Source: Actinomadura sp. DC4
Lineage (GTDB): Bacteria > Actinomycetota > Actinomycetes > Streptosporangiales > Streptosporangiaceae
Reading direction: 5' to 3'
DNA: 64,000 nt
Assembly (NCBI RefSeq): GCF_030406325.1
Contig: NZ_JAUEQY010000004.1
Span: forward strand, 396,736 to 460,735
A program made the position numbers and the translations under genes. Below, piece by piece: positions 4,314 through 34,705 of this stretch (position 1 is its first letter; the number at the start of each line of letters is the position of its first letter). The notes under the pieces are model-generated. The model did no database searches, had not been told where the DNA came from, and worked only from the letters and a program-made list of their open reading frames with translations.

Positions 4314-4321
4314 TAATAGGC

Positions 4322-6891: not shown

Positions 6892-6923
6892 GTCACCTTT
6901 TCCTCACCGCCAGGAGGATCTTC

Positions 6924-8372: not shown

Positions 8373-8389
8373 CGAAGCGAGACAACGAG

Positions 8390-9655: not shown

Positions 9656-9681
9656 TCGGAGCGTTCTGACGATCGGCGCAT

Positions 9682-9721
9682 CCAGGGCCGGTACCCGCAT
9701 ACCCGCAGGTACCGGCCCTGG
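9682..9721 (+). terminator. Hairpin terminator of the exoenzyme operon
   Basis: CCAGGGCCGGTACC (9682-9695) pairs perfectly over 14 bp with 9708-9721 around a 12-nt loop, 27 nt after the GH16 stop. No U-tract follows. Confidence 0.8.
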
Positions 9722-9831
9722 TCACGCGTGCGTCGGCGGCGCCACGGGTATGCCTTTGGAGGGACGAAAGCCGCACTTGGGGGCGCTTGGGGCATTGCGC
9801 GCGTCTCCCTGGAGCTGACGGGGGGCGATCG

Positions 9832-17255: not shown

Positions 17256-18116
17256 ATGAACGGCGCGCTGACGGAGCTGCTCGATCTGCTCGACCTCGAG
17301 CAGATCGAGATGGACATCTTCCGCGGGCGCAGCCCGGCCGAACGCCAGCAGCGCGTGTTCGGTGGCCAGGTGGCGGGCCAGGCCCTGGTCGCGGCGGGCC
17401 GCACGGTCCCCTCGGACCGTCACGTCCACTCGCTGCACGCGTACTTCATCCGCCCGGGCGACCCGAGCGTCCCGCTGGTCTACACGGTCGACCGCGTCCG
17501 CGACGGCCGCTCGTTCACCACCCGCCGCGTCTCGGTCATCCAGCATGGCAAGGTCATCTTCACGCTGTCGGCGTCCTTCCAGGTGCTGGAGGAGGGCCCG
17601 TCCCACCAGGCGCCCATGCCGGAGGTCCCGTCCCCGGAGGACCTGCCGACCTTCCGCGAGAGGATGGAGGCGCTGTTCGGCCCGCAGGACAACGACTTCT
17701 TCCGCCGGCGCCCGGTCGACCTGCGTCACGTGACCCCACTGACGTGGGAGGCCGCCCGCGACCCGTCGCTGACCTCGTCGGAGTCGAGGGTCTGGCTGCG
17801 CGTCGACGGCGAACTCCCGGACGACCCCCTGCTGCACGTCTGCCTGATGACGTACGCCTCGGACATGACGCTGCTCGACACGGTGCTGCTCAACCACGGC
17901 CTGGCATGGGGCGACAAGATGACGATGGGCGCGAGCCTGGATCATGCGATGTGGTTTCACCGCCCCTTCCGCGCCGATGAGTGGCTGCTGTACGCCCAGG
18001 ACACCCCGAACGCCTCCGGCGCCCGGGGGCTGGCTCGTGGCGAGGTCTTCACCCAGGACGGCGAGCTGGTCGTCTCGGTCGTCCAGGAGGGCCTGATCCG
18101 CACGACGGAGTCCTGA
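17256..18116 (+). CDS. tesB: Acyl-CoA thioesterase II
   Basis: This 286-aa double-hotdog enzyme hydrolyses acyl-CoA to free acid and CoA. FGGQVAGQALVAAGRTV, HSLHAYFIRPGDPSVP and RDGRSFTTRRV mark the first hotdog. SLDHAMWFHRPFRADEW and NASGARGLARGEVFTQDGEL mark the second. Length is normal. ATG 17256 has TAGGGA 9 nt upstream. The gene is intact, but its last 110 nt and the first 20 nt of its 3' flank recur as damaged copies at 28838-28967 and (stop codon only) 31568-31677. An integrase relic lies just downstream. This suggests that the gene's 3' end served as an integration site for a mobile element. Confidence 0.94.
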   Translation: MNGALTELLDLLDLEQIEMDIFRGRSPAERQQRVFGGQVAGQALVAAGRTVPSDRHVHSLHAYFIRPGDPSVPLVYTVDRVRDGRSFTTRRVSVIQHGKVIFTLSASFQVLEEGPSHQAPMPEVPSPEDLPTFRERMEALFGPQDNDFFRRRPVDLRHVTPLTWEAARDPSLTSSESRVWLRVDGELPDDPLLHVCLMTYASDMTLLDTVLLNHGLAWGDKMTMGASLDHAMWFHRPFRADEWLLYAQDTPNASGARGLARGEVFTQDGELVVSVVQEGLIRTTES

Positions 18117-18126
18117 CCTGGTGAGA

Positions 18127-18159
18127 CGCGGCTTCCTCGAGGAGGGCGAGGAAGCCGCG
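18127..18159 (+). terminator. tesB terminator hairpin
   Basis: CGCGGCTTCCTC (18127-18138) pairs perfectly over 12 bp with 18148-18159 around a 9-nt loop. The tesB-end relic at 28838-28967 keeps only the start of the left arm, so it is broken within this hairpin. Confidence 0.8.
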
Positions 18160-18225
18160 CGACAAACGCGTCGACGGCTGGGAGGCCCGGCGCGTAGCGA
18201 ACCAGGAGAGCGACCGGGAACGATC

Positions 18226-18452
18226 TCACTGTGTGTCATCCCGGATCGGAGACCCTCGCTGAGGGCCACCGTTTTGTGCGGGGAGTGTGCCAGCTCGGCC
18301 GGTGGCTCGCTCTGGCCGTGGATCGCCCCTGGCGTAGGTCTGGAGCAGCACGGGCACCGTGTTGCCGGCGTGGCGCGCCGCCTCTGCGGCAGGAACGAAC
18401 ACCCGAGTTGAGCCAGAGCGTCAGGGCAGCGTGACATAGGCCGGACGGTCAG
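18226..18452 (-). pseudogene. Decayed tyrosine-recombinase (integrase) C-terminus
   Basis: On the minus strand, frame ending at the stop 18226-18228, the sequence AEAARHAGNTVPVLLQTYA resembles the integrase tail around GHS and the catalytic Tyr. One base out of frame and directly upstream (18398-18448), GLCHAALTLWLNSGV matches the usual DLRHAALSLWLNSGV. The parts join only through a frameshift. The catalytic Arg before His is Cys, GHS is GNT, and a stop precedes the fragment. It is therefore a dead remnant of an actinophage or ICE-type integrase. It sits 67 nt past the tesB terminator, where an element's integrase would be next to its attachment site. No longer N-terminal part was found. Confidence 0.6.
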
Positions 18453-18687
18453 AGGCGAGGCGACAGGTGAGGTGGTAAGGGCGAGCCGTCGCGGCAAGAC
18501 GAATGGTTACGTCATCTGATTGACCGGGTGACCAATTACCCCACGAGGATAGGTATCGGCGCCGACGAAAGGCCGTCGTTTCCCGGCACGACAGCTGTGA
18601 AATATCCGACTCACCATTGCGATGTCCACATTCGGACACCGGGAAGACCGTCTATCCCGGCGCCGACTGATCGGTGATAGTCGGACC

Positions 18688-19695
18688 ATGATTGAGACTG
18701 TGTTCCGGAGTGAGGACGTACCGTCGGCAGAACGGTTCGCCCGCTGGCACGAGATGAGCAACCGCAAACACGCGCCGGTGATGATCCGCAGTGATCACAA
18801 GGCGGATTTCCAGGCCACCACGCGGAACCTGGACCTCGGAGCCGTTCAGGTGACCGAACTGACCTTCCCGCCCGTGTACGTGAGCCGCCCCCCGAAACTG
18901 ATTCGCCAGTCCGATCCGGAGACCTTCGCCGTGTGGCTCGGCCTGCGGGGGACCATGGAGATCGCCCAAGGCGGCCGATGTGTAGAACTCGCCCGCGACG
19001 AATTGGTGCTCTATGACAGCTCACGGCCCTACCACGGTCGGGCGGACGCGGTCACGGGAGTTGAGGTGGAATTCTTTCGCGCGCTGATGCCCATACCCTC
19101 TAACGCCATTGCCAGGATCACCGCGATCCGCATACCGGCAGGCGAGGGAATACCCGCCCTGTTTCATCGCCACCTCATCGAACTGATCCGGCAGGCTCCC
19201 CGCTTCCGGCCGGCCGACACCGCCCGCCTGGCCACCATCACCCTGGATCTGATGGCCGCGATGTGCGCCTCCCTCATCGAGGCAGACAACTGTCTACCGC
19301 CCGAGACACGCCAGCGTGCCCTGCAGGCGCAGATCCACGACTTCGTGCTGCGGAACCTCGGGGACCCCGACCTGTCAGCCGACACCATCGCCGCCGCTCA
19401 CCAGATCTCCGTGAGCTACCTGTACAAACTCTTCGAACAACAGGGCCTGACCGTGGCCGGCTGGATACGCCAACGCCGACTCGGACGCTGCCGCCGCGAT
19501 CTCGCCGACCCTCAACTGAGCCAGGTACCGATCCACGCCATCGCGACTCGCTGGGGCTTCACCAACAACGCCCACTTCAGCCGGCTCTTCCGGGCCGCAT
19601 ACGGCATGTGCCCAAAGGACTACCGGGCGATCCGAACGCCGTCCAAGGGAGTGTCACCTCAGAGGCTCGCGGACGACAGTCCCGGCCAAGCGTGA
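18688..19695 (+). CDS. AraC-family transcriptional regulator (AraC-binding-like sensor)
   Basis: This 335-aa regulator has an N-terminal cupin-like ligand domain (AraC_binding_2 type) and a C-terminal double helix-turn-helix from about residue 225. ISVSYLYKLFEQQGLTVAGWIRQRRL is the first HTH; AIATRWGFTNNAHFSRLFRAAYGMCPKDYR is the conserved second one. ATG 18688 (MIETVFRSED) is chosen over an upstream in-frame ATG because it fits family starts. It stands between the integrase relic and the Rhs gene and may be cargo of the same island. It is 108 nt upstream of and co-oriented with the Rhs gene, so it may regulate it. No operator could be recognised. Confidence 0.85.
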   Translation: MIETVFRSEDVPSAERFARWHEMSNRKHAPVMIRSDHKADFQATTRNLDLGAVQVTELTFPPVYVSRPPKLIRQSDPETFAVWLGLRGTMEIAQGGRCVELARDELVLYDSSRPYHGRADAVTGVEVEFFRALMPIPSNAIARITAIRIPAGEGIPALFHRHLIELIRQAPRFRPADTARLATITLDLMAAMCASLIEADNCLPPETRQRALQAQIHDFVLRNLGDPDLSADTIAAAHQISVSYLYKLFEQQGLTVAGWIRQRRLGRCRRDLADPQLSQVPIHAIATRWGFTNNAHFSRLFRAAYGMCPKDYRAIRTPSKGVSPQRLADDSPGQA

Positions 19696-19803
19696 AAGAA
19701 CCGGCAACAACAGTGCGTAAAACGTCAACGACTTCCTCCTGAGGGCGCGACAGGCTCGGGCGCACGATGGTCCGTTACACCGCGCTGCCTTCCGGGAGGC
19801 GTT

Positions 19804-22800
19804 ATGGGTCGCTCACGGTTCGTTGCCCAGATCAGCAGGTCCGTGTGGTTGCGGCCGGTGGTTCTGCTGGTGGGTATGGCGCTGGCGTTCGGGGGATTGC
19901 TGGGTGGTGGCGTTCCGGTCCCGCCCTCGTTGACGAGCCGGGCGCATGTGGTGACGCCGAAGCAGCGATCGGGTTCCGCCGCCGGCAGGGCGCATCTGGT
20001 GTCCTCGAAGCAGACGACGGCCAGGGGCGACGGGAGGAAGCGGTTGCCGCAGCGGCTGCCGCAGCGGCCGAAGAACGCGCCGCCGGTGGAGCGACCGTTC
20101 ACCCCCCAGGTGGTCAAGACCGGCGGGAAGCGACCCGCGCCACCGCACCGGGTCGGCTTGATGCCCAAGCGCGGGCCGGTGAAGGTCACCGGGTTCGACG
20201 CGAAGCGCAGCGTGGCGGATCCGGGGCAGCGTGGCCGGTTCACCGATCGGTATCGCAACCCCGATGGGACGTGGACGGCGCGGGTCTACACCCGTCCGGT
20301 CAACTACCGGGACGCGACGGGCGCGTTCCAGCCGATCGACGCCAGGCTCGTCGATGACGGCCACGGTCAGTGGCGGAACACGGCCGACGGCAGCCGGTTG
20401 ACGTTCGCCGGGAGAGCCTCCGGGCAGGATCTGGCGACGATGGATCTGGGTCGCGGCAGGCGGTTCGGGTTCGGAGTGGCAGGCGCTGCCACGGTGCCCG
20501 GGACGGCCCGGGCCGACACGGTGCGGTACGCCGGTATCGAGCCGGGCACGGATCTGGTCCTGCAGTCGCTGAACGGCGCCAGCATCAAGGAGAAGCTCGT
20601 CCTGCGGTCCCCGGGCGGTGCCTCGTCGTGGGAGTTCCCGTTGCGCACCGACGGGCTGGTGCCGCGGCTGGCCGCTGACGGCAGCGTCGAGGTGGTCGAC
20701 GCGGCCGGTGCGGTGGTGGTGCACATCCCGCACGGCTTCATGGTCGACGCGAAGATCGACCCGCGTTCGGGGGAGGGCGCCCGTTCGCAGGCCGTCGCCT
20801 ACGGACTGGAGGAGCGCGGCGGCCGATGGGTGCTGAAGGTGACCGCCGACCACGCATGGCTGGCGGATCCGGCGCGAGTGTTCCCGGTGACGGTGGACCC
20901 GACGTCGGTGACGAACTTCAGTGACACCTCCGACACCTATGTGCAGACCGGCTACGGGTCGAGCCCGTACACCGAGGACCAGCTGAAGGTCGGCACGTAC
21001 GACGGGGGCTCTACCAAGGCCGCCACGTATCTGGGATTCTCCCAGGTCGACAACGACCTGAGCCATTCCAAGATCTATGACGTCGACCTGCACCTGATGA
21101 ACGCGTGGTCGTACTCGTGCAAGGACGAGCCGATCTCGGTGCATCCGGTGACGCAGAGCTGGGGGCAGGCGTCGATCGCGGCCTATCCGGGTCCGTCGTA
21201 CGGGTACGCGCTGGCGTCGCGGAGTTTCGCGGACGGATGGACCAGCGGCAGCGGCGCGGCCAGCCCGTGTCCGGCCAGATGGGAGGGCATCGATCTGGGT
21301 ACGGCCGGGGACGCCCTGGTGCAGGGGTGGGTGGACGGCACCAAGGCGAACTACGGGTTGACGGTGCGGGCCTCGACGACGAGCAGCTATGGCTGGAAGA
21401 AGTTCTCCAGCAGGGAGACCCCCAACGGCCCGTACATGAGCATCGTCTACAGCCCGTACAACGCCACGTACACGATGGCGGACAACCCGGTGGTGTTCAA
21501 CCCGCCGGTGCTCAACAACCAGGCCGGCTACGTGCATGTGAAGGTCACCGACAAGGGCCACACCACCTGGACACCGACCAACGGCTACAAGCTGTCCTAC
21601 GAGGTGTTCGACCAGGCCGGTAACCAGATCAAGCACGTCGCCGCGCAGACGGTGATGCCGGGAAACGTCGCCTACGGGCAGACGGCCACGGTCAACGCGA
21701 AGGTCAACGCCCTGCCGCCGGGCACCTGGACGATCAAGTTCGACATGGTCACCAGCGGCGGCGCGTTGTTCTCCGACTGGGGTGTGGCGCGCACGGCGCA
21801 GGTGAAGGTGACGGTCCCGGACGTCCCGGCCCGACTCAACGAGATGTCGCCGCACAACAATCTCCAGGTCGGGTCGCTGACCCCGCAGTTGTTCGCGGAC
21901 GCGGTGAGTGTGGACGCGTGGCCGTCGGCGACGGTGAACTACCAGTTCACGGTGTGCGCGGCACCGTGGATCGACTGGTCGTGGTGTGTGACCTCGCCGT
22001 GGCAGCAGACCCCGAAGTGGACGGTGCCAGACACCGATCCGGCAAAACGGCTGGAGTGGGCCAACGAGTACTACTGGACCGTGTCGGTCAACGACGGTGG
22101 CGGCACGACCACCAACGGCCCGTGGCATAAGTTCGCAACCGCCGTGCAGCAGCCGGAGATCACCTCCCACCTGGCCGCCACGGCGTCCGGTGGCCAGGAG
22201 TTCGACCAGCAGACCGGTAACTTCATCACCACGGCGACGGACGCGAAGGTCGCGGCGGTGGGGACGCCGTTGTCGGTGACCCGCACCTACAACAGCCTCG
22301 ACCCACGTACGGGCGGGATGTTCGGTGCGGGCTGGACCAGCCGCTACGACATGAAGGTGGTTCCCGACAGCGCCGGTAGCGGCAACGTGGTGGTCACCTA
22401 CCCGTCCGGGCAGGAGGTCCGGTTCGCCGGCAACGGTGACGGCACCTACGCCCCGCCCATCGGGATGTTCGCGACCCTGGCGGTGAACGGTGGAGGGTGG
22501 CGGCTGCGCGACAAGTCCTCCACCACCTACGACTTCGATTCAGCCGGCCGGCTGACGTCCATCACCGATCACCGGGGGCGCGCGCAGAGTCTCGCGTACG
22601 GAACGGGCGGCAAGCTGTCGGTGGTCACGGCGACCGGTGGCCGGTCGCTGACGTTCGGGTGGTCGGGCAACCATGTGCAGACCGTGAGCACCGACCCGGT
22701 TGACGGGTCGCCGTTGACGTGGACCTACTCCTACAGCGGGGACACCTTGACGAAGGTGTGCCCGCCCACGTCGGCCACGGCGTGCACGAGCTACTCCTAC

Positions 22801-25800
22801 GGGTCGGGCTCGCATTACCGCACTACGGTGCTGGACGACAACCCGGTCGGGTACTGGCGGCTGGGGGAGGCCGCCGGGACCACCGCGAACAGCGAGGCGG
22901 CGGCGAATCTCGGCACCGACAAGGGCACGTACGCCGCGGCGACCCTCAACACCGCGGGTGCGGTGGGCGGCACCGGTGACAAGGCGGTGCACCTGGCCGG
23001 TGCGGGGAGCGTGCGGCTGCCGGACCGCTATGTCAGCAAGCAGAGCGGCTACCTGGCGGTGGAGGCCTGGTTCAAGACCTCCGGCAAGGGCACGATCCTG
23101 GCCTACCAGAACGCGGCCGCCGGGTCGTCGCCCACCAATTTCACCCCGGCGGTCTACGTCGGCGGGGACGGGAGGCTGCGCGGCCAGTTCTGGAACGGGA
23201 CGGCCACGCCGATCACCTCATCCGGTGTGGTGAACAACGACCAGTGGCATCACGTGGTGCTGTCCGGGCAGGGCGGCAGCCAGACCCTGTACCTGGACGG
23301 GTCGGTCGTCGGTTCCCTGGACGGGACGATCGATCACCTGAACCAGCCGTACGTGTATGCGGGATACGGGTGGGCGTCCTCGCACTGGCCGCAGACCGTG
23401 ACGACAGCGGGCAGCAACTTCTACTTCACCGGCGACATCGACGAGGTGGCGATCTACGACAAGCCGCTCGGCCTGCCGGCGGTGCAGCAGCACTACGCGG
23501 CGCGGCTGGCGGCCCAGCAACTGACCCAGGTCACGTTGCCGACCGGCCGGGTGCACGCGATCAACACCTACGACACCGGCCACGACCGGCTGGCCACCCA
23601 GACCGACCACAACGGCGGGGCGTGGGCGCTGGGCACCCCGGCGTACTCGGGGACCACCGATGCTCCGGTCAAGACCGTCACCCTGGACACTCCGGCCGGC
23701 ACTGGCACCATGACCTACCGCTACGACCCGCTGCGGGGCAACCGGATCACTTCGGAGACCGACCAGCTGGGCAAGACGACCACCTACGGGTACGACATCG
23801 CCGGACACCTGGCGACGGTCACCGATGCCAACGGCAACGAGACCGCCATGGCCTACGACGAGCGCGGGAACCTGGACTGGCAGCGGAGATGCCGGGACCC
23901 CGACACCTGCTACGCCGAGTACTGGAGCTACTACCTCAACTCCGGTGACCCGTTCGATCCCCGTAACGACCAGCTGACCGCCCACCAGGACGGGCGCACC
24001 GTGAATCCGTCCGCGAGTCCGTACACCACGACCTGGCAGTACGACACCTATGGGCAGCAGACACAGCAGCAGTGGCCCGGCACCGACGAGTTCCCCGATG
24101 GCGTTCACGGGCTCGCCTATGAGTACACCGACGGCACCGAACCCGCCTGGGGCGGCGGCAGCACACCCGCGGGGTTGCTGAAGCGGCAGTCGAACGGGAG
24201 CGGCCGGACCACCCACACCTTCACCTACACCTCGGCCGGTGACGTGGCGCGCGACACCGACGCCGCGGGGAAGGCGACCAGCTACACCTACGACGCGCTC
24301 GGCCGGGTGCTGACCACGACGGAGACCTCCGACGCCCACCCCGCGGGGGTGACCACCAGCCTGGCCTACGACGGGGAGGACCGGGTCACCACCGAGACCG
24401 GGCCCGCCGTGACCAACGAGGTCACCGGGGTCACCCACACCGCGCAGACGCGCTACACCTACGACGACGACGGCAACCGGCTCACCGAGACCCTCGCCGA
24501 CACCACCGGTGGTGACCCCGGCCGGGTCACCACGTACACCTACGACTCGCACGGACGTCCCGACAGCGTCACCGACCCCGAGAACCACACGCGGTACGCA
24601 ACCTTCGACACCACCGGCGCACGCACCACCGAGATCGACCCGCTCGGTCACACCTACGCCCTCACCTACACGCCGCGCGGGCAACCGGCCACCCGCACCC
24701 TCAAGGGCTGGACCGGCAACCCCGACCATCCGAGCTCGGCCCGGGACCTGGTGGTCGACTCCTACGCCTACGACGACGGCGGCCGCCTCGCCTCCCACAC
24801 CGACGTGATGGGCCGTACCCTCGCTTACACCTACTACGGCGACGATCTGCTCGCCCAGACCACCGCCCGGGGCGTGACGCTCAACAACGCCTCCACCGGC
24901 CGCGACGTGGTGATGGAGTCCGACACCTACGACGGCGCGGGCCACCTGACCACGCAGGTCACCGGGGGCGGGAAGAAACGGGTCGACTACGTCTACGACC
25001 AGATCGGCAATCGGGTCGCCCAGGTCGTCGACCCCGACGGGGTGGCCCGGCGCACCGACAACAAACTCGACGCCGACAACAACGTCGTCAAGACCACGCT
25101 GACCGATGGCGGCTCGGAGCGCCAGGAGGTCACCTCCTACACCTTCGACGCGCTGCACCGGACGACCGCACGGACCGTGGAGAACGGCGACGAGGATCTC
25201 ACCACGACGTACACCCGAAACCAGCTCGGAGACATCACCTCGGTGGTAGACCCGCGCGGCAACGCCGCCGGTGCCACGCCCGCCGACCACACCACCACCA
25301 TGCGATATGACCCGGCGGGCCGGCTCGTCCAGGTCACCCAGCCGCCGGCCCAAGTCGAGCGAAACGGAGCCCCGGCCGTACAGTCCAACCCGACCCTCAA
25401 GATCGGGTACGACACCGCCGGCGAACGCACCCAGATCACCGACCCAGAAGGCCGTAAGAAGACCATCGGCTACGACAGGACCGGCCAGACCATCGCTCTG
25501 GCGCAGCCGTCCTACACCCCACCCGGTGGCACGGCGTTCACCGCGACCACCACCTTCGCCTACGACGCCGCCGGGCAACTGCTGAGGCAGACCGATCCGC
25601 GGGGCGACACCACCAGCTACGCCTACGACGCGCTCGGCAACTCCGTTCACCGCGACGACCCGCGGCTGTCCACCGAGAACAATCCCGGACGCTGGAGCTA
25701 CGACTACGACACCGCCGGTGAGCCGCTGTCCGAGACCGATCCGATGGGCGCCCGCACCGAGGCGACCTACGACGACCTGGGCCGCCAGATCACCCAGACC

Positions 25801-28626
25801 ACCGTCGAACGCAAACCCTCGGCGGCCGCCTACACCACCGGCCTCACCTACGACGACGCCGGGAACCTCGTCCAGACGGTCAAGCCGGGCGGCGACACCA
25901 CAGCGCTCACCGTCGACGGAGTGGGGGAGATCACCCAGCAGGTCGACCCGCTGGGCAAGATCTCAACGGCCGAGTACGACCTGGCGGGCCGGTCCGTGAA
26001 GGTGACGGATCCGCTGGGCAGGAGCACCGCCGTCGAGCACGACGCCGCCGGCCGTATGACGGCATCAAAAGATCTTGACTCCGATGGTTCGATCCTGCGG
26101 ACGCGCGTGTTCGGATACGACCCGAGTGGGAACCGCACCAGCGAGACCACACCCGAAGGCAGAACGACCCAGCGGACCTACGATGCCGCAGGCAACCTGA
26201 CGAAGCTCGTGGAACCGGTGGCGGCCGGTAGCTCGATCACCACGACGTTCGGATACGACGCCGACGGAGGACGCACCCGGCTGACCGACGGACGCGGCAA
26301 CGCCACGATCACTACCTACAACACCCTCGGCCTGACCGAGTCGGTCATCGAACCGTCCACTCCCGCCCACTACGACCTGGCGAGCCGCACCTGGACCACC
26401 TCCTACGATGCGGCCGGTAACCCGGTCAGACAAGACAAGCCGAGCGGGGTCAGCGTCACCCGGGTCTTCGACGAACTCGGCCGCCTGACCCAGGAGAACG
26501 GCGCCGGCGCCGGCGCCTCCACCGCGCAGAAGACCTTCGGGTACGACCTGGCCGGCCACCGGCTACGCGTCTCGGCCCCCGGCGCCGACATCCTGACCAC
26601 CTACAACGACCGCGGCCTGGCGCTGACCACCTCCAGCCCCAACGGCGCCGGCGCCACCTTCGGCTACGACTCCGACGGGCGCCTGACCAGCCGTACGGAC
26701 GCCGCCGGGGCGGCCTCCTTCACCTGGAACGGCTACGACCAGCTCACGGCCGCCACCGACGACATCACCGGCGACACCGCCACCAGCTCCTACGACGGCG
26801 CCGGCCGGCTCACCGGCATCCAGTACGGCACTACCGGGGCACATCGCACCTACACCTACGACGCCCTCAACCGGGTCAAGACCGACACTCTGACCTCGCC
26901 CGGTGCCACCACGCTCGCCTCGACCGCCTACACCTACGACAGAGACGACCACATCACCGGCAAGACCACGGCGGGCACGCCCGGTGCGGGCGCCAACTCC
27001 TACACCTACGACGATGCCGGACGCCTCACCCAGTGGACGGCCCCGGCGGGCACCGTCACCGACTACAGCTGGGACGCCGCGGGCAACCGCACCAGGGCGG
27101 GCACCACCACCTACACCTACGACCAGCGCAACCGGCTGACCTCCGACAGCACCGGAACCACCTACACCTATACCGGTCGCGGCGACCTCAAGACCCAGAG
27201 CGACCAACCCGCGAACACCCTCACCTTCGACGCCTACGACCGTCTCATCACTGACAATGGCGTCACCAACACCTACGACGCCCTCGACCGCCTCACCACC
27301 CGCACCCAGGCCGGCGTCACCACAAAGGTCAGTTACGCCACCGACCAGAACGACCCCGTCGCGACCACCAACGCCACCATCCAGACCACCTACGGCCGAG
27401 GGCCTGACGGCGATCTGCTGTCCGCACGGGTCAACGGCACCCGCGGCCGCGTCCTGACCGACCGGCACGACGATCTCACCGCCACGCTCAACCAGGCGGG
27501 CGACGCCCTCACCGGCTCGACGGTGTACGACCCGTTCGGGACACCCACCGGCACCACCGGAACCGTCCCGGACCTCGGCTTCCAGAGCGAGTACACCGAC
27601 CCCACCACCGGGCGCGTCGACATGAACGCCCGCTGGTACACCCCCGGCACAGGCGACTTCGCAAGCCGCGACGACTGGACCCTCGACCCCGTCCCGTCCA
27701 TCCAGGCCGACCACTACACGTACGCCAACGGTTCCCCACTCGACAACGTCGACCCCACCGGGCATTCGGCCCGCGGAGACTGCGGCTCCCCAGGCCAGAT
27801 GAGCCTCGCGAGCTACGGGCTGAGGGGAAACGACTGGAACGGCGCAGGGGGCGACGACTGCCAGGACGCCCAGAACGGTGGCAGCAGTAGTGGCGACGCC
27901 CACAATCCCGGTGGTGGCAGTGGCGGCGGCCATCCCTCGTCCGGCGGTGGCGGCGGTGGCGGTGGCGGCGGTGGCGGTGGCGGTGGTGGCGGTCATCACA
28001 GCCCAACCCCCAAGCCCTCACCCGAGGACATCCAGCATCAGCAACTCAAGCACGCGCTGAGGCACCCCCAACCCCGTCCGCCGACGGTGAATCCCATCAC
28101 CCAGGGCCAGGTCGACAAGGGGCGGGACGCCGCGGAGTCCGGGATCCCGGCGGTAGGTTCGCAGAACAACGCGGACCCGGGGACTTCCCCGCCGGTGGTC
28201 AGTGTCCCTCCCGACAGCTCGCCCGTGACCGGAACTCCTGCGCCGGGCAACGGAAAGTGTGGGCCAGGTTCAAACGCGAGCCCCGGACTTTCCTGGCCGG
28301 ATTGGCCGCACCTCAAATGGCCCAGCCTTCGCAGGCCCCGGATTCCGAAAACTCCCGCTCAGATCGGCTGTATGGGCTTGTGCTTGTTGGGGGAGATCGA
28401 GAACGACACTGGCTGCGCGGAACTGTGCCTGGCATGCACGGAAATGACCCTTCCTACGAACACGCCGCTCTGGATATTGAGGGCATTTACCTGTTACCGT
28501 TGTGCTCTTTGCGCTGGGGAAAAATATCATGACTGCGCCGACAACTGCATTGAAAAGAGAGGAGGTAAGAAGCAGCTTCCTCCGCCGGGCTCGACGGAGC
28601 CACCACCGAGCCTGCCGACCCCCTAG
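19804..28626 (+). CDS. Giant secreted Rhs/YD-repeat protein with LamG insertion and Cys-rich tip
   Basis: This 2940-aa protein starts at ATG 19804 after GGGAGG. A basic, hydrophobic signal region (residues 1-50) leads to a Pro/Arg-rich stretch, a DNRLRE-type domain (about 370-560) and an Rhs N-terminal module (about 780-900, TPLSVTRTYNSLD). A LamG/concanavalin domain (about 1000-1235) interrupts the early YD repeats. Dozens of YD repeats follow (about 1300-2560), ending in the Rhs core (YDPFGTPTG, DNVDPTG at about 2575-2652). After the core come a run of about 17 Gly, a Pro-rich segment and a tip with 10 Cys in residues 2856-2915. Rhs shells normally encapsulate and deliver the variable C-terminal toxin. 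The tip matches no toxin I know. The DNA encoding it is less GC-rich. Confidence 0.93.
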   Translation: MGRSRFVAQISRSVWLRPVVLLVGMALAFGGLLGGGVPVPPSLTSRAHVVTPKQRSGSAAGRAHLVSSKQTTARGDGRKRLPQRLPQRPKNAPPVERPFTPQVVKTGGKRPAPPHRVGLMPKRGPVKVTGFDAKRSVADPGQRGRFTDRYRNPDGTWTARVYTRPVNYRDATGAFQPIDARLVDDGHGQWRNTADGSRLTFAGRASGQDLATMDLGRGRRFGFGVAGAATVPGTARADTVRYAGIEPGTDLVLQSLNGASIKEKLVLRSPGGASSWEFPLRTDGLVPRLAADGSVEVVDAAGAVVVHIPHGFMVDAKIDPRSGEGARSQAVAYGLEERGGRWVLKVTADHAWLADPARVFPVTVDPTSVTNFSDTSDTYVQTGYGSSPYTEDQLKVGTYDGGSTKAATYLGFSQVDNDLSHSKIYDVDLHLMNAWSYSCKDEPISVHPVTQSWGQASIAAYPGPSYGYALASRSFADGWTSGSGAASPCPARWEGIDLGTAGDALVQGWVDGTKANYGLTVRASTTSSYGWKKFSSRETPNGPYMSIVYSPYNATYTMADNPVVFNPPVLNNQAGYVHVKVTDKGHTTWTPTNGYKLSYEVFDQAGNQIKHVAAQTVMPGNVAYGQTATVNAKVNALPPGTWTIKFDMVTSGGALFSDWGVARTAQVKVTVPDVPARLNEMSPHNNLQVGSLTPQLFADAVSVDAWPSATVNYQFTVCAAPWIDWSWCVTSPWQQTPKWTVPDTDPAKRLEWANEYYWTVSVNDGGGTTTNGPWHKFATAVQQPEITSHLAATASGGQEFDQQTGNFITTATDAKVAAVGTPLSVTRTYNSLDPRTGGMFGAGWTSRYDMKVVPDSAGSGNVVVTYPSGQEVRFAGNGDGTYAPPIGMFATLAVNGGGWRLRDKSSTTYDFDSAGRLTSITDHRGRAQSLAYGTGGKLSVVTATGGRSLTFGWSGNHVQTVSTDPVDGSPLTWTYSYSGDTLTKVCPPTSATACTSYSYGSGSHYRTTVLDDNPVGYWRLGEAAGTTANSEAAANLGTDKGTYAAATLNTAGAVGGTGDKAVHLAGAGSVRLPDRYVSKQSGYLAVEAWFKTSGKGTILAYQNAAAGSSPTNFTPAVYVGGDGRLRGQFWNGTATPITSSGVVNNDQWHHVVLSGQGGSQTLYLDGSVVGSLDGTIDHLNQPYVYAGYGWASSHWPQTVTTAGSNFYFTGDIDEVAIYDKPLGLPAVQQHYAARLAAQQLTQVTLPTGRVHAINTYDTGHDRLATQTDHNGGAWALGTPAYSGTTDAPVKTVTLDTPAGTGTMTYRYDPLRGNRITSETDQLGKTTTYGYDIAGHLATVTDANGNETAMAYDERGNLDWQRRCRDPDTCYAEYWSYYLNSGDPFDPRNDQLTAHQDGRTVNPSASPYTTTWQYDTYGQQTQQQWPGTDEFPDGVHGLAYEYTDGTEPAWGGGSTPAGLLKRQSNGSGRTTHTFTYTSAGDVARDTDAAGKATSYTYDALGRVLTTTETSDAHPAGVTTSLAYDGEDRVTTETGPAVTNEVTGVTHTAQTRYTYDDDGNRLTETLADTTGGDPGRVTTYTYDSHGRPDSVTDPENHTRYATFDTTGARTTEIDPLGHTYALTYTPRGQPATRTLKGWTGNPDHPSSARDLVVDSYAYDDGGRLASHTDVMGRTLAYTYYGDDLLAQTTARGVTLNNASTGRDVVMESDTYDGAGHLTTQVTGGGKKRVDYVYDQIGNRVAQVVDPDGVARRTDNKLDADNNVVKTTLTDGGSERQEVTSYTFDALHRTTARTVENGDEDLTTTYTRNQLGDITSVVDPRGNAAGATPADHTTTMRYDPAGRLVQVTQPPAQVERNGAPAVQSNPTLKIGYDTAGERTQITDPEGRKKTIGYDRTGQTIALAQPSYTPPGGTAFTATTTFAYDAAGQLLRQTDPRGDTTSYAYDALGNSVHRDDPRLSTENNPGRWSYDYDTAGEPLSETDPMGARTEATYDDLGRQITQTTVERKPSAAAYTTGLTYDDAGNLVQTVKPGGDTTALTVDGVGEITQQVDPLGKISTAEYDLAGRSVKVTDPLGRSTAVEHDAAGRMTASKDLDSDGSILRTRVFGYDPSGNRTSETTPEGRTTQRTYDAAGNLTKLVEPVAAGSSITTTFGYDADGGRTRLTDGRGNATITTYNTLGLTESVIEPSTPAHYDLASRTWTTSYDAAGNPVRQDKPSGVSVTRVFDELGRLTQENGAGAGASTAQKTFGYDLAGHRLRVSAPGADILTTYNDRGLALTTSSPNGAGATFGYDSDGRLTSRTDAAGAASFTWNGYDQLTAATDDITGDTATSSYDGAGRLTGIQYGTTGAHRTYTYDALNRVKTDTLTSPGATTLASTAYTYDRDDHITGKTTAGTPGAGANSYTYDDAGRLTQWTAPAGTVTDYSWDAAGNRTRAGTTTYTYDQRNRLTSDSTGTTYTYTGRGDLKTQSDQPANTLTFDAYDRLITDNGVTNTYDALDRLTTRTQAGVTTKVSYATDQNDPVATTNATIQTTYGRGPDGDLLSARVNGTRGRVLTDRHDDLTATLNQAGDALTGSTVYDPFGTPTGTTGTVPDLGFQSEYTDPTTGRVDMNARWYTPGTGDFASRDDWTLDPVPSIQADHYTYANGSPLDNVDPTGHSARGDCGSPGQMSLASYGLRGNDWNGAGGDDCQDAQNGGSSSGDAHNPGGGSGGGHPSSGGGGGGGGGGGGGGGGGHHSPTPKPSPEDIQHQQLKHALRHPQPRPPTVNPITQGQVDKGRDAAESGIPAVGSQNNADPGTSPPVVSVPPDSSPVTGTPAPGNGKCGPGSNASPGLSWPDWPHLKWPSLRRPRIPKTPAQIGCMGLCLLGEIENDTGCAELCLACTEMTLPTNTPLWILRAFTCYRCALCAGEKYHDCADNCIEKRGGKKQLPPPGSTEPPPSLPTP
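27946..27996 (+). repeat. GGTGGC-type microsatellite coding poly-Gly in the Rhs protein
   Basis: A near-perfect GGT/GGC run codes for about 17 consecutive glycines between the Rhs core and the variable tip. Such runs can change length by slippage, with little effect if whole codons are gained or lost. Confidence 0.75.
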
Positions 28627-28837
28627 CTTTGATCATTCACGGTATGGCCGGCCGGCGGCCCGGGTTCTCCTTTCGCGCTCGCGGGGACGAGTTCGTGCTG
28701 GTCAGGTGGTATCCGGGAGAGCGCAGACGCGTTGCCAGGCCCGCGTGATCGCCTCGGCCGGTCACTTCCGGCAAGACGACCTGCGGTGCCCTCTGCGCGG
28801 CCAAGCGCTTTCCGGGGCGCGGTGCGATCGGGACGCT
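28627..28837. other. Gap after the Rhs gene; no immunity gene recognised
   Basis: The 211 bp after the Rhs stop hold only a 34-codon frame (ATG 28644 to TGA 28748), whose product is basic and unlike known immunity proteins. I see no promoter, terminator or larger coding frame with support. Confidence 0.4.
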
Positions 28838-28967
28838 CGAACGCCTCCGGCGCCCGCGGCCTGGCGCGGGGCGAGGTAGTGCACCCGCGACGGCGATCTG
28901 GTCGTCTCGGTCGTCCAGGACGGCCTGATCCGCGTCAAGGACTCCTGATCTGGTGAAACGCGGCTTC
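28838..28967 (+). pseudogene. Relic of the tesB 3' end, copy 2
   Basis: This segment aligns base for base with 18006-18135. It encodes NASGARGLARGEV, then after a 1-nt insertion near 28888 continues in another frame as GDLVVSVVQDGLIRVKDS and a stop at 28946-28948. Similarity runs on past the stop (CTGGTGA.ACGCGGCTTC) into the left arm of the tesB terminator and then ends. No upstream part of a thioesterase precedes it. It is therefore a severed 3' end, best explained as an attachment-site duplication or displaced gene end. Confidence 0.75.
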
Positions 28968-29213
28968 TGATGAAACAGCCGAGCGGTGCCAGATTGATGG
29001 AGGCCAGTGTCTATCACACAGCACGCCTCGCACACAGCAGCGGTTGACGGACCTTCCGGGACAGCAGGAATGATCGTGATCTACTGGGTGCCGTAGGTCT
29101 CCCTCGGCCCGGTCGTCGGGATAGCGGCAGATCGCGCAGGTTCCCTCCTGGGTCGCTAGCAACTGGTCGCGTTCGTGATCCCATACGTCCGCCGGATTGA
29201 ATAGCGGTCGCAC
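28935..29213 (-). pseudogene. Endonuclease VII-like (His-Me finger) gene, truncated
   Basis: The 92-codon frame has the recombination endonuclease VII pattern: CAIC, then VDHDHSCCPG, then CCVRGVLC, i.e. the zinc knuckle and the HNH-type active site. The family continues after the last Cys with CNxxLG and a short helix. Here that part is lost: the next residues are unrelated and the frame ends inside the antisense of the tesB relic. In another frame CVIDTGLHQ resembles the missing piece, suggesting a frameshift. The N-terminal part is also unclear. These proteins are common in actinophages and islands. It is probably a dead gene cut at the island junction. Confidence 0.5.
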
Positions 29214-29382
29214 ATAGTCCGCATCGCCGCCCTGGTAGGCCGAAAGGGACCTGATGTTCGCAGGTCATGTGCGATGGCCTCCAGACACAGAGCGAGGGGT
29301 TGGACAGACGGCTCAATTCTCACAGGTCAAGCGCCTATGGGCACGGAGAGGCCCTGGCTGAACGACCCGCCGAGGATTCCGC
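29214..29382. other. Short gap without an assignable gene
   Basis: Minus-strand frames contain CEHQVPFGLPGRRCGLC, a possible zinc knuckle that may be the frame-shifted N-terminal part of the endonuclease VII relic. Nothing else is recognisable. Confidence 0.3.
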
Positions 29383-29799
29383 TCAAAGATCTTGATCCGC
29401 ACATCGTGACAACAGGTCGGAGTCTGGCCCGGTGCGGGCCGTCGCCGGTTCCTCACGGGCCATGGATGAACCGTCTGCTGCCGGGGCGTTCCAGCCCGAG
29501 ACGAACCATCGGACACGCCCCATGTCCCATGTCCCATGTCCGTGCACGGGTGTGCGTTGACCTACGTTCCAGACGGCGCAGGCCAACGACCAGCCGTCGT
29601 CGGCAGCGATGTGAAGGGGATGGTTGACATGGCGCTCGTCCGATGGGCGTGGGACCTCGGGTGGGAGCCGGTAGTCGCCGGACAGGAGGGCGGACAACCG
29701 CTCCGCGACCCGCTTGGTGATCTCGTGCTCGTCGCCGGTGCTGCCGACCACGAGTTCCACGTCGTGGACGAAGGTCTGCGGGGCGTCATCAGGTTTCAT
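29383..29799 (-). pseudogene. Cupin (cysteine dioxygenase-like metal enzyme), frame-shifted
   Basis: The frame begins at ATG 29799 behind a strong AGGGGAG site. It encodes the start of a double-stranded beta-helix enzyme of the cysteine-dioxygenase-like type: YRLPPEVPRPSDERHVNHPL, then WNVGQRTPVHGHGTW, where the His residues bind metal. After this motif the sequence stops resembling the family and runs to residue 138, well short of the usual 180-200. The break falls exactly at three tandem CATGTCC heptamers (+ strand). Two copies would restore HGTWGV, but the following sequence still looks decayed. It is probably inactive and probably island cargo. Confidence 0.55.
29521..29541. repeat. Three tandem CATGTCC heptamers inside the cupin gene
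   Basis: CATGTCC occurs three times head to tail at the codons just after the metal-binding HGHGTW. Gain or loss of one 7-nt unit shifts the frame, so this is a slippage site. Confidence 0.8.
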
Positions 29800-29838
29800 G
29801 GTGATCTCCCCTGAGAGTGCGCGACGCTGCCTTCCGGG

Positions 29839-30456
29839 TCAGGGCAGCACGCGATAGGTCAGGTGCGTGACCGAGTTCGCTGCTCGCGACTCCACCTGCC
29901 GCAGATTCAGTGGCCCGACGCCGTCGAACAGTCGCGTGCCGGCGCCGAGCGTGAGCGGCACGATGTGCAGCCGCAGCTCGTCGATCAGGCCGGCGGCGAG
30001 GTACTGGTTGACGGTGGTCGCGCCGCCATGGATGGAGATGGCGCCGTCCCCGACCGCCTCGCGTGCACGTTTCAGCGCGGATTCGATTCCGTCGGTGACG
30101 AAGTGGAACGTGGTGCCGCCGTCCATCGGCTGCGGATCGCGCGCGTGGTGAGTGAGCACGAAGACCGGGCCATGGTAGGGCGGATTGTCGCCCCACCAGC
30201 CGTTCCACTGCCGGTCCCACTCGCCCCGCACGGGGCCGAACATGTTGCGCCCCATGATGAACGCTTTGGCCGCGGTCCCCCGGTCGAGCTCGACCCGGTT
30301 CTCCTCGGCAGCGGCATACCAGGCGTGCAGCTTGTCGCCCCAGCCGTCTCCGCCGTCGTCGCCGAACGGCCGTTGCTCGCTCTGGTTGAGCCCTGCGGAG
30401 TATCCGTCGACCGAGATCGTCAGATCGCAGGTCACCCTGCCCAGCCGTGTGGTCAT
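29839..30456 (-). CDS. Dihydrofolate reductase-like protein (RibD C-terminal family)
   Basis: This 205-aa protein matches the RibD_C/DHFR-like family: VTCDLTISVDGYSAG at the N-terminus, FIMGRNMFGPVRGEW, PVFVLTHHARDP and the NADPH loop ISIHGGATTVNQYLAAGLIDELRLHIVP. Most members are uncharacterised NADPH-dependent reductases and are unlikely to be the housekeeping DHFR. ATG 30456 is chosen because GAGGAGGACG precedes it; the frame runs further upstream without a good site. It is divergent from a LysR gene, the classical arrangement in which the LysR protein controls its neighbour. Complete and apparently functional, unlike the adjacent cupin. Confidence 0.85.
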   Translation of the reverse strand: MTTRLGRVTCDLTISVDGYSAGLNQSEQRPFGDDGGDGWGDKLHAWYAAAEENRVELDRGTAAKAFIMGRNMFGPVRGEWDRQWNGWWGDNPPYHGPVFVLTHHARDPQPMDGGTTFHFVTDGIESALKRAREAVGDGAISIHGGATTVNQYLAAGLIDELRLHIVPLTLGAGTRLFDGVGPLNLRQVESRAANSVTHLTYRVLP

Positions 30457-30538
30457 TTGCGCCGTCCTCCTCGTGGCGACCTGCCGTCGCCTTCGCGGTG
30501 ACCTTCCCGTCACGTGCCAGCATGGAAGCGCCATCACA

Positions 30539-30553
30539 TGACGTCTAATGTCA
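30539..30553. promoter_or_regulatory. Candidate LysR-type binding site
   Basis: TGACGTCTAATGTCA has 4-bp inverted ends (TGAC/GTCA) in the AT-richer gap between the divergent reductase and LysR genes, 33 nt upstream of the LysR start. LysR proteins bind short interrupted dyads in such gaps. Confidence 0.45.
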
Positions 30554-30586
30554 ATTCCGCCGGGAACGCATTAATATTCTTGATCT

Positions 30587-31501
30587 ATGCTCACCCTGAC
30601 CCACCTCAAGGTTCTGGCCGCGGTGGCCCGACACGGCTCGGTCACCGAAGCGGCAGCGGAGTTGCACTACTCCCAACCGTCGGTGAGTCACCACCTGGCC
30701 CGCCTGGAAGCGGCCACCGGCGTCAAACTCGTTCAGCGGATCGGTCGCGGGATCCGGCTGACGCCTGAAGGGCGGTTGCTGGCCGACCGGTCCGCCGAGA
30801 TCCTGGGCCGAGTCGACGCGGCGACCAACGAGTTGGCCGCCCAGGTCGGCCTGCAGGCCGGGCGGGTCCGGCTGGCCGCCAACGCATCCACACTGAGCAC
30901 CATCGTGCCCACGGCGGTCGCCGCGTTGGCCCAGGCGCACCCAGGTCTCCAGCTGAGCCTGTTCGACCGCCACCCCGTCGAAGCGCTACGCATGCTGCGG
31001 CACGGCGAGATCGACATCGCCCTCGTCTACCGCTACGCCGACGCCCCCGTCGAGGAGGAGGGATTCCGCCTCGAACACCTCGGCGACGATCCGATCTACC
31101 TCATCAGCCGGCGACCCGGCGACAGCCTCGCCAACCACCGCCACTCCGCCTGGATCGACGGTTGCGACCGGTGCCAGAACGAACTGAACGCCCTGTGCCG
31201 GCACGAGGGCTTCACTCCCCGCATCGCCTCACACAGCGACGACATGGTCGTCGTGCAATCCCTCGTCGCCGCCGGCATCGGCGTCGCCACTCTGCCTGGC
31301 CTCGCGCTCCAAGCCCACCGCCGACCCGACATCCACGCCACCGAACTCACCGGCCGCCACCGCCAGATCTACGCCGCCACCTACGGCGACCCACCCGACC
31401 CACCCGCTGCGACCGCCGTACTAGCCGCACTCGCCGACGCGACCACGCCGGCAACCTCGACCGCAACGCCGTCGACCACATCCCGCCGAAACAACAGATG
31501 A
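30587..31501 (+). CDS. LysR-family transcriptional regulator
   Basis: This 304-aa protein has the LysR winged helix-turn-helix at its start (LKVLAAVARHGSVTEAAAELHYSQPSVSHHLARLE) and a periplasmic-binding-like effector domain after about residue 90. It begins at ATG 30587, 130 bp from the divergent DHFR-like gene, which is its most probable target. The C-terminus is Thr/Ser-rich. It lies inside the region bracketed by tesB relics 2 and 3, so it may have been acquired together with that reductase. Confidence 0.9.
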   Translation: MLTLTHLKVLAAVARHGSVTEAAAELHYSQPSVSHHLARLEAATGVKLVQRIGRGIRLTPEGRLLADRSAEILGRVDAATNELAAQVGLQAGRVRLAANASTLSTIVPTAVAALAQAHPGLQLSLFDRHPVEALRMLRHGEIDIALVYRYADAPVEEEGFRLEHLGDDPIYLISRRPGDSLANHRHSAWIDGCDRCQNELNALCRHEGFTPRIASHSDDMVVVQSLVAAGIGVATLPGLALQAHRRPDIHATELTGRHRQIYAATYGDPPDPPAATAVLAALADATTPATSTATPSTTSRRNNR

Positions 31502-31567
31502 TCAGCAAGCAGCGATACAAGCCCATCCGCAAGTCTTGACAATTCCTCCCAGGTCCTCGGCGGGCAT

Positions 31568-31677
31568 CCGAACGCCTCAGGCGCCCGCGGCCTGGCGCGC
31601 GGAGAGGTCTTCACCCAGGACGGCGAGTTGGTCGTCTCCGTGGTCCGGGAGGGCCTGATCCGGGTGAGGACTCCTGA
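31568..31677 (+). pseudogene. Relic of the tesB 3' end, copy 3
   Basis: This 110-bp segment matches 18006-18116 of intact tesB. It encodes NASGARGLARGEVFTQDGEL and VVSVVREGLIRV in the tesB frame. A 1-nt deletion near 31667 removes the normal in-frame stop, although the stop sequence ACTCCTGA is present. It resembles copy 2 more than copy 1 at several positions (GCGCCCGCGGCCTGGCGCG). No upstream thioesterase sequence precedes it. It lies directly beside the 3' end of the TetR gene and marks the likely outer boundary of the island. Confidence 0.75.
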
Positions 31678-31682
31678 CCGGC

Positions 31683-32312
31683 TCACTCCGCCGGAGGCTT
31701 GGATTTGCGGCGGGGGAGGCGCATCGTCAGGAGTTTGGCGCGGGGGGCGACGCGGGCGGCCAGGCCGAACAGCGCGTCGGTTCGGGTGCGGTCCGCGTCC
31801 AGGTGGGTGAACAGGTTGATCCCCAGGTAGAAGGTGATCGCCGCGTACGCCAGATCGCGTGGTGGCATCAGCTTGGCCAGGGGTGAGCCGCCGATCACCC
31901 GGTCCAGGGTCGTCTCGATGAACTCGATCCACGGCTCGGCCCGGACCACGATCTCCTGGCGCAGTTCCGGCCGGGCGATGCCGGCGCCGATCAGCTCCGT
32001 GAACAAGGTGATGTGGCCGCCCTCGATGTCGGCCTGGTAGATCGTGGTCGCGACCTCGACCAGGTCCTCGATGGTCGTGGCGCCGGCGACCGCCTCCTGG
32101 TGCGCGGCCATCCGCTGCTCCGAGGAGCGGTCGAGGGCGGCCAGCAGCAGCGGGTCGACGCCGTTGAAGTGGTAGAAGATCAGCGCCGAGTTGCAGCCCG
32201 CGGCCTTCGCGATCGTGCGGGCGCTCGTGCCCGCGTAGCCCACGGTGCGCAGCGTCTGGGCGGCCGCCTCGATCAGGCGTTCCCGGGTCTCCGTGCTGTT
32301 CTGCCCGCTCAC
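31683..32312 (-). CDS. TetR-family transcriptional regulator
   Basis: This 209-aa regulator has the N-terminal TetR helix-turn-helix (GYAGTSARTIAKAAGCNSALIFYHF, residues about 25-50) and a helical ligand domain. It is divergent from a membrane-protein operon; an 18-bp palindrome 46 nt from its start is a convincing operator. It probably represses both itself and that operon and releases in response to a hydrophobic ligand, as TetR proteins usually do. The ligand is unknown. Its 3' end abuts a tesB relic. Confidence 0.92.
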   Translation of the reverse strand: MSGQNSTETRERLIEAAAQTLRTVGYAGTSARTIAKAAGCNSALIFYHFNGVDPLLLAALDRSSEQRMAAHQEAVAGATTIEDLVEVATTIYQADIEGGHITLFTELIGAGIARPELRQEIVVRAEPWIEFIETTLDRVIGGSPLAKLMPPRDLAYAAITFYLGINLFTHLDADRTRTDALFGLAARVAPRAKLLTMRLPRRKSKPPAE

Positions 32313-32357
32313 GACACTCCCCGGTTGACAACCCGAACACCCTAGTTCATCGTACGG

Positions 32358-32375
32358 TTTAATCGACCGATTAAA
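32358..32375. promoter_or_regulatory. TetR operator palindrome
   Basis: TTTAATCGACCGATTAAA has perfect 8-bp arms with a 2-nt centre, in an AT-rich patch between the divergent TetR gene and the membrane operon. Size and position are typical of a TetR dimer site. Confidence 0.75.
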
Positions 32376-32398
32376 TCAGTTGATGAATGAGGTGGCCC

Positions 32399-33286
32399 AT
32401 GGTCGTTCCCGACCCCCGGCGGCAGCGGACCGCCCGGCGCACCCTGCTCGGCGTGGTGGCCGCGCTCTTCGTCGCGATGCTCATGTACAAGATCCTCAAG
32501 GCCGGGCACCTCGAGCAGACCGCGCTGTTCTACGTCGGGATCCCGGCGCTCATCGCGCTCACGGTCGTGGCGACCGCCCGGCCGCGCTCCACGTTCGGCG
32601 CGAACATGGTCACCATCACGATCGGGCTCGCGCTGGCCGGGCCGCTGCTCAACGAGGGCATGGTCTGCCTGGTCGTCGCGGCACCGCTGTTCTACCTGTG
32701 CGGCGCGGTCGTGGGCGTGATCGCCGACGCGGTCCGCAAGCACAGGGGCATGCAGGCACTGCTGGTCATCCCGCTGCTGCTCAGCGCCGAGGGCGCGGTG
32801 ACCTCACTTCCGCGCGGGGGCGAAGTGACGGTCACCCGGAACGCTCCGGCCGGCACCGATCTGGACCGGGCACTGGCGGCCGCGCCGGTGTTCGGTCCGG
32901 TTCGGTCGCCGCTGCTGCGGCTCAAGTTCCCCAAGCCCGTACGGGCCGAGGGCTCCGGCCTCGAACCGGGCGCCACCCGGCACATCGACTTCACCCCGCG
33001 TAGGTCGCTGGGCATCGGCGCCAGGCCGACGCCCCGCTCGATGGACCTCACGGTCGTCCGGCGCGCCCCCGGCCTCGCGGTGTTCGCGGTCAGCCGCGAC
33101 ACCACGCTCGCCCGGTGGCTCCGGTTCACCGAGGCGGAGTTCCGCTGGCAGGGGACCCGGCTGTCCGTGACCCTCCGGTATCGCAGGACGTTCGATCCCG
33201 CCTGGTACTTCGGCCCGGTCCAGCACTACGGCATGCGGGAGGCCGCCGCCTACCTCGCCGAGACCTTCACCGGGAGAGCCGGGTGA
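32399..33286 (+). CDS. Membrane protein of unknown function with soluble C-terminal domain
   Basis: This 295-aa protein has an Arg-rich start followed by about four hydrophobic segments (residues about 15-125). A soluble part ends with VQHYGMREAAAYLAETFTG, which may be a beta-rich lipid- or polyketide-binding fold; I do not recognise a family. ATG 32399 is chosen because GAGGTGG precedes it by 6 nt; an in-frame ATG at 32387 lacks such a site. It starts 24 nt from a TetR palindrome. It overlaps the next gene in GTGA, so the two are coupled and probably act together at the membrane. Function unknown. Confidence 0.75.
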   Translation: MVVPDPRRQRTARRTLLGVVAALFVAMLMYKILKAGHLEQTALFYVGIPALIALTVVATARPRSTFGANMVTITIGLALAGPLLNEGMVCLVVAAPLFYLCGAVVGVIADAVRKHRGMQALLVIPLLLSAEGAVTSLPRGGEVTVTRNAPAGTDLDRALAAAPVFGPVRSPLLRLKFPKPVRAEGSGLEPGATRHIDFTPRRSLGIGARPTPRSMDLTVVRRAPGLAVFAVSRDTTLARWLRFTEAEFRWQGTRLSVTLRYRRTFDPAWYFGPVQHYGMREAAAYLAETFTGRAG

Positions 33287-34542: not shown

Positions 34543-34562
34543 CCGGTAACATTCTGCCGGCC

Positions 34563-34676
34563 ATGGCACGGCGAGCCCGCGAGGCGGTTGAGCGCGAGCC
34601 CCTGCGGTTCTACGAAAGCGGCCCACTCGGCGCCATCGCGCACATCCGTACGGACCGGTCGGGCCCGCGAGAGTGA
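34563..34676 (+). CDS. Candidate 37-aa small protein
   Basis: A short frame from ATG 34563 to TGA 34676 encodes a basic peptide beginning [20 protein letters not shown]. It lies alone in the gap between the methyltransferase and the Dxs-like gene. No strong ribosome site or family is visible, so it may be chance. Confidence 0.25.
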
Positions 34677-34705
34677 CCGGACCAATCATGGAGGAGGCCC
34701 TCCCC

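Follow-up and report, generated by a model that had tools for sequence, protein, structure and literature searches.

The question raised by this locus is why the 3′ end of one acyl-CoA thioesterase gene, tesB, should be present three times in the window (the whole stretch of DNA that was analysed, 64 kb in length). The window genome is Actinoallomurus, its tesB showing 84-89% DNA identity to that of seven congeners (G001-G007), three of which are Actinoallomurus bryophytorum, A. purpureus, and A. soli. The preliminary description, made from the sequence alone, had reported that the last 110 nt of tesB recur twice in damaged form with no upstream thioesterase part at either relic, and blastn within the 64-kb window bore this out: tesB 18007-18135 aligned with 28838-28967 (copy 2; 112/130 identical, 86%, one gap, E 3e-38) and 18006-18118 with 31568-31679 (copy 3; 98/113 identical, 87%, one gap, E 8e-33), with no upstream part of the gene aligned at either place. 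The 5′ limits of both relics coincide to within one base, at 18006 or 18007 in tesB. The frameshifts that were taken as a sign of age were likewise confirmed, one relic having a single-nucleotide insertion and the other a single-nucleotide deletion (Table 1), as was the run of copy 2 past the stop codon, which shares 19 nt with copy 1 (17/19 identical) into the left arm of a terminator-like inverted repeat and then breaks. Copy 3 has no such shared tail. Among the best 40 of 183 candidates in the window's own genome (10.67 Mb, 101 contigs), only these three tesB-end places were found at E ≤0.001, and a pattern scan of the genome contigs for the tail common to copies 1 and 2 returned 0 matches.

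Table 1. Features of the tesB-spoU region of the window.
Feature	Position	Strand	Basis or remark
Intact tesB, acyl-CoA thioesterase II, 286 aa	17256..18116	+	Pfam PF02551, PF20789, PF13622
Copy 1, attL-like gene end and terminator start	18006..18135	+	5′ limit 18006/18007, presumed crossover side
Terminator-like inverted repeat, 12-nt arms 18127-18138 / 18148-18159	18127..18159	+	read from sequence
Decayed C-terminal end of tyrosine integrase, frame broken upstream	18312..18433	-	match to A. rupiterrae integrase gene
AraC-family regulator, cargo	18622..19695	+	PF14525, PF12833
Rhs/YD-repeat protein, 2940 aa, cargo	19804..28626	+	PF05593 x12, PF20148, PF13385
Copy 2, displaced tesB 3′ end, 1-nt insertion	28838..28967	+	blastn within window
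Short ORF, endonuclease VII match, overlapping copy 2	28935..29213	-	PF02945, 36.2 bits vs cut-off 23.6
Three-gene unit: 138-aa ORF, RibD-C reductase-like, LysR	29383..31501	.	profile matches; congener match
Copy 3, displaced tesB 3′ end, 1-nt deletion, putatively oldest or native	31568..31679	+	blastn within window
TetR, two further ORFs (one PEMT match at cut-off), truncated DXP-synthase-like ORF	31683..35350	.	profile matches
SpoU-family RNA methylase gene, right edge of insertion	35347..36132	+	PF00588; tesB adjacency in G002, G003, G004

The undisturbed arrangement of the region can be read from the congeners. A UvrD-type helicase gene lies upstream of tesB in the window and in all seven of them, and the SpoU gene is the right neighbour of tesB in the genus. 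When aligned with the window, the tesB block and the block starting at 35353 (the SpoU gene) are 138, 181, and 27 nt apart in G002, G003, and G004, respectively, each with one tesB end; an empty site in relatives, which according to the preliminary description would support integration, is therefore present in three of the seven congeners. The corresponding gap of G007, G006, G001, and G005 holds other inserts of about 0.6, 2.6, 3.2, and 8.3 kb, in which the rest of 18117-35352 finds no match at E 1e-6, and none of the seven genomes has the stretch seen in the window in its own tesB-spoU interval. Relative to all seven, 18117-35352 is thus an insertion of 17 kb, and the foreign stretch, earlier thought to end at 31677, extends to 35352. 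The gap behind tesB is moreover a general landing place, given that differing inserts occupy it in four of the seven. Neither a second tesB end nor a tesB paralogue lies between tesB and spoU in any congener (0/7), so that the full-length paralogues expected earlier under simple gene decay are lacking in that interval, and weak short tesB matches occur at other places in four of the seven. The inverted repeat of the window was not seen in the printed tesB tails of these genomes. No closing tesB repeat is present at 35352, and the 3.67 kb past copy 3 (31680-35352) are unexplained by the proposal developed below.

The gene content of the insertion was largely named correctly at the outset, with AraC and Rhs genes in the first interval and RibD-like and LysR genes in the second, all of which have profile matches (Table 1). 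The endonuclease VII gene stands as far as its profile match, which exceeds the cut-off, though it amounts to just a short ORF, and for the supposed cupin gene (ORF 29383-29799) neither Pfam nor NCBIfam gave a match at E 0.001. The view that the intervals of 10.7 and 2.6 kb are each one element did not gain support: 29520-31445 is found as one block at 81% elsewhere in two congeners (G006:C1:2170463-2172319 and G003:C3:701250-703108), the 2.6-kb interval between copies 2 and 3 gave no integrase match, and the closing repeat is missing. Since most of this interval is a three-gene unit that also occurs elsewhere in two congeners, we read it as cargo or as a later insertion and not as a plain element in its own right. 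The genes of 31683..35350 are absent from the tesB-spoU interval of the congeners; among them, a 225-aa ORF (34673-35350) directly before the SpoU gene has a match to the DXP synthase domain model that is confined to the model's N-terminal part, and looks like a truncated extra copy.

The decayed integrase that had been noticed beside the intact tesB proved to be 79.5% identical over 122 nt to a tesB-linked integrase gene of Actinomadura rupiterrae (E 5e-24), with the frame broken inside. This scrap codes AGNTVPVLLQTYAR, which we take to hold the catalytic Tyr, and just upstream in another frame CHAALTLWLNSGV; both sequences belong to the C-terminal end of a tyrosine integrase. When the best two candidates were scored in each of 341 family genomes, its best match outside its own genome was the A. 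rupiterrae gene (E 7.6e-23), followed by one at 2.9e-14. The other two tesB-linked integrases, at 1.2e-10 and 4.5e-10, rank among general family integrases, for which reason the evidence is the top match together with its position, not the whole list.

Elements with such an integrase were found at tesB in related genera. In Actinomadura kijaniata NBRC 14229 (G272), the last 175 nt of tesB and the 172 nt behind it are repeated 32 kb downstream (94% over 347 nt); in A. rupiterrae DSM 45251 (G295), a second tesB end (last ~175 nt) lies 35 kb downstream; and in Spirillospora albida NRRL B-3350 (G254), two tesB ends stand on two contigs with the same geometry. A full-length integrase is present at the tesB end in all three. 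Integration into the 3′ end of the gene, the central proposal of the preliminary description, thus gains from both the empty site in congeners and two loci, plus a third that is split, with an intact integrase. Measured from the end of the aligned integrase, the tesB stop of the window lies 196 nt away, against 219 nt for S. albida, 253 nt for A. rupiterrae, and 6.4 kb for A. kijaniata, and all four, the scrap included, are convergent with tesB. Between tesB and the integrase of A. kijaniata, next to the left end, lies a gene for an AspBHI-like methyl-directed restriction enzyme (L074:4684-6039).

Altogether, five of the 65 genomes of genus g81 (G272, G295, G254, G285, and G269) were counted as having a second tesB end that extends to the stop at ≥83%, with at most 10 candidates scored per genome; the tesB loci of 44 of the 65 were retrieved, including those of all five. 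The count does not include a weaker second match on another contig of G280 (75%), several short matches of 82-83% that end a long way from the stop codon, and a large number at 68-74%, all of which were presumed to be paralogues or chance similarity. In G285 (L091) and G269 (L092), the two tesB ends are separated by just 1.7 and 0.9 kb, respectively; neither locus gave an integrase match at E 0.001, and both are probably scars of lost elements.

Among the matches listed for the 341 family genomes, where the best four candidates per genome were considered, two come close to the integrase of A. kijaniata, at 74% and 65%, ahead of one at 52%, and all three integrases sit at a tesB end. In a protein search, the clade proved small, comprising at least nine clusters at 59-100%, followed by a drop to ≤50%; the surroundings were examined for two of the nine (those of G272 and G254), and the G295 protein falls outside the listed clusters. 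The match to PF00589 is below cut-off for the G272 protein and P0003 and lacking at E 0.001 for P0005 and P0006. R401, H402, and Y433, presumably catalytic residues of the integrase, are invariant in eight aligned sequences, the first Arg not being in the invariant list. Searches of viral contigs with the integrase gave two pattern matches, neither of which was confirmed, and tesB found two partial matches among phage records, both in unannotated records, and 36 among plasmid records, two of them covering ≥80% of the query. Pairs of related integrases about 13 kb apart (G268:C1:5363734-5378666 and G195:C57:346023-360144) look like tandem elements at other sites.

The A. kijaniata element encodes Prim-Pol (PF09250) and DUF927 proteins, and that of A. 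rupiterrae DUF927 and Replic_Relax proteins, with no Prim-Pol among the five G295 proteins scanned; replication-relaxation and sliding clamp genes are also among the element genes. Weak matches to transfer genes came from a 782-aa protein of G272 (plasmid_TraB, E 4e-6, 25.5 bits against a cut-off of 800) and a 759-aa protein of G295 (EccCa, E 1e-5, below cut-off, with no Pfam match). The A. rupiterrae element also holds genes for type I-G Cas7g, Cas5/6g, Cas3g, and a Cas3-extension protein (L088:3276-4067, 4304-10599), as well as an 11-repeat CRISPR array just inside its right end. Among the ORFs of the A. kijaniata locus, just the helicase and tesB match the window (E 1e-4).

Comparison with 39 other g81 species bears on which of two tesB ends is the host's own. 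The 6 kb inside the three elements found matches in none of the 39. The flank past the displaced end of S. albida aligns with the tesB downstream sequence of 36 of them (with that of G277 from 35 nt past the stop), and because of this alignment the displaced end is taken as the host's own, which suggests that the end now on the S. albida gene may have come with the element. The flank beyond the displaced end matched one species for G272, matched only from 3.1 kb on for G285, and had no match for G295 and G269. Nearest-neighbour tests of the 5′ and 3′ parts of tesB were also tried and gave no clean split of element-borne and native ends.

The 5′ limits of the repeats cluster at tesB nt 688-693 (four cases) and 752-754 (three cases, the window twice and G269), a clustering reached in 0 of 200,000 uniform random draws, with the proviso that related elements are not independent draws. 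In the nt 688-693 group, the start of the repeat immediately precedes an inverted repeat, GTGGTTCCAC, and the repeat extends as far as the stop codon. Between the two ends of A. rupiterrae there is no difference over roughly the first 83 nt; in the remainder 18 codons are different, each through a synonymous third-base change (18/18). Both ends have therefore coded for the same protein, and the element seems to bring along a functional end of the gene in recoded form. The differing codons are synonymous in 3/3 cases in A. kijaniata and 13/14 in S. albida. The motif GCAGGTCA, which at a guess may be an integrase arm site, lies 23-38 nt before the displaced end in four of the five cases (G272, G295, G254, and G285; L075, L088, L090, and L091), and is absent before that of G269 and before both window relics. 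The latter start ~62 nt further downstream in tesB than the repeats of the same four genomes, so that use of one and the same integrase site is only a possibility.

Taken together, we consider it likely, at a probability of roughly 0.8, that the three tesB ends were left behind by two or more old integrations of mobile elements whose tyrosine integrase would recombine within the 3′ part of tesB. Such an element would bring a functional tesB tail of its own; a crossover within the gene would join the 5′ part of the host to the tail of the element, thereby restoring the gene, and would push the host's own tail to the far end, and a second element arriving at the same site would push the first tail inward. 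Copy 1 would then be the tail of the newest element, copy 2 that of the first, and copy 3 the native one, an order of events, a number of elements, and a crossover point that we infer for the window. Copies 1 and 2 have in common a post-stop tail that was not seen in the congeners, which fits element-borne ends, and copy 3, which lacks it, fits a native end. The 110 nt themselves could not tell which copy is native: copy 1 is nearest to two congeners (90% to G003, 89% to G006), copies 2 and 3 being 73-86% alike to all seven, which is the opposite of the simple expectation, though relics drift faster. A likeness of the post-stop tail of the window to element tails, sought in the 44 g81 and seven congener genomes, did not rise above shuffles and was for that reason not used as evidence.

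It is improbable that the foreign DNA entered by ordinary recombination, whether homologous or illegitimate, in which tesB tails served as the homology arm, no site-specific integrase was at work in the window, and the integrase scrap is a bystander. This reading nevertheless survives best among the alternatives: it would account for the inserts without tesB ends in the tesB-spoU gap of four of the seven congeners, for the 29520-31445 unit elsewhere in the genus, and for the lack of the arm motif at the relics, and it is at odds with the 5′ limit common to both relics and with an integrase scrap whose location and direction are those seen in two intact cases. Very improbable is a single integration followed by an internal duplication of the displaced end that gave rise to copy 3 (or 2); the relics are indeed 86% alike, about the same as each is to copy 1, but their 500-nt flanks share little (the best upstream match being 18 nt, E 0.009, and no downstream match being better than E 0.36), and the tail past the stop is common to copies 1 and 2 only. 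That old tandem duplicates or paralogues of tesB decayed in place until only ends were left is hardly credible, for although the relics are frameshifted and old and weaker tesB-like matches occur elsewhere in family genomes, both relics share one 5′ limit with no upstream part, the tesB locus has a second copy in 0/7 congeners, and the integrase scrap adjoins copy 1.

This kind of integration has described counterparts, the nearest we met being PAISt of Streptomyces turgidiscabies. This 674-kb island is reported to have a tyrosine recombinase at the 3′ end of the protein-coding gene bacA, where the 8-bp palindrome TTCATGAA lies, to end at its far side in a 141-bp duplication of the bacA end, and to be divided into two modules by an internal third copy; related islands hold an integrase remnant, and excision and integrase activity were tested (PMC4057263). 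The gene-end target, displaced end, internal third copy, and integrase remnant are all shared with the window, where copies 2 and 3 likewise provide an internal copy dividing modules, and an intact gene at one end with a truncated 3′ copy at the other is found in the window, G272, G295, G254, G285, and G269. The differences are the target (tesB here), the size (32 and 35 kb for the elements on one contig), and that the present elements are known from sequence alone.

Actinomycete integrative and conjugative elements (AICEs) are described as having a tyrosine integrase beside one att site and Prim-Pol or other replication genes, with several elements accreting at one site and remnants holding a partial integrase; the vast majority of tyrosine-integrase AICEs occupy the 3′ end of tRNA genes, the pSLS integrase sub-family being the exception (PMC3218068, PMC9513070). 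The tesB elements resemble AICEs in integrase position (219-253 nt from the tesB stop in G295 and G254, 6.4 kb in G272), in a replication gene of the RepSA, RepAM, or Prim-Pol kind (Prim-Pol of G272), in flanking att repeats at a conserved site (the tesB-end repeats of G272 and G295, and those of G254 on two contigs), and in accretion and remnants. They differ in the use of tesB instead of tRNA 3′ ends, and an FtsK/TraB-type transfer gene is only weakly matched here. Integration, replication, and transfer modules were not found in the inserted stretch of the window, which with its integrase scrap only is at most a remnant. The dusA elements are also reported to tie an integrase family to one protein-coding gene, with insertion at the 5′ end of dusA (PMC4482086), unlike the 3′ part of tesB used here. 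In the open-licence PMC literature, tesB was not encountered as an integration site among the matches listed, and the thioesterase in PMC6549336 appears only in its reference list.

Opinion is evenly balanced on the wider proposition that an undescribed integrase lineage is dedicated to tesB. Its elements would cut into the gene, exchange the last 36-58 codons for a synonymous set of their own, and carry defence systems, namely type I-G CRISPR-Cas and a methyl-directed restriction enzyme, from one actinomycete genus to another; their accumulation at tesB would leave, as in this Actinoallomurus, a series of displaced gene ends from which each arrival could be dated. A clade that uses the end of a metabolic gene would escape scans built on tRNA sites, and displaced, synonymously differing ends could record successive integrations, their number and order being readable from sequence. 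In Actinomadura-type hosts, an integrase specific for tesB could be put to use as a tool for integration. Finally, immune systems are present in both of the elements that were seen in full length, and this would link the tesB site to the traffic of defence genes.
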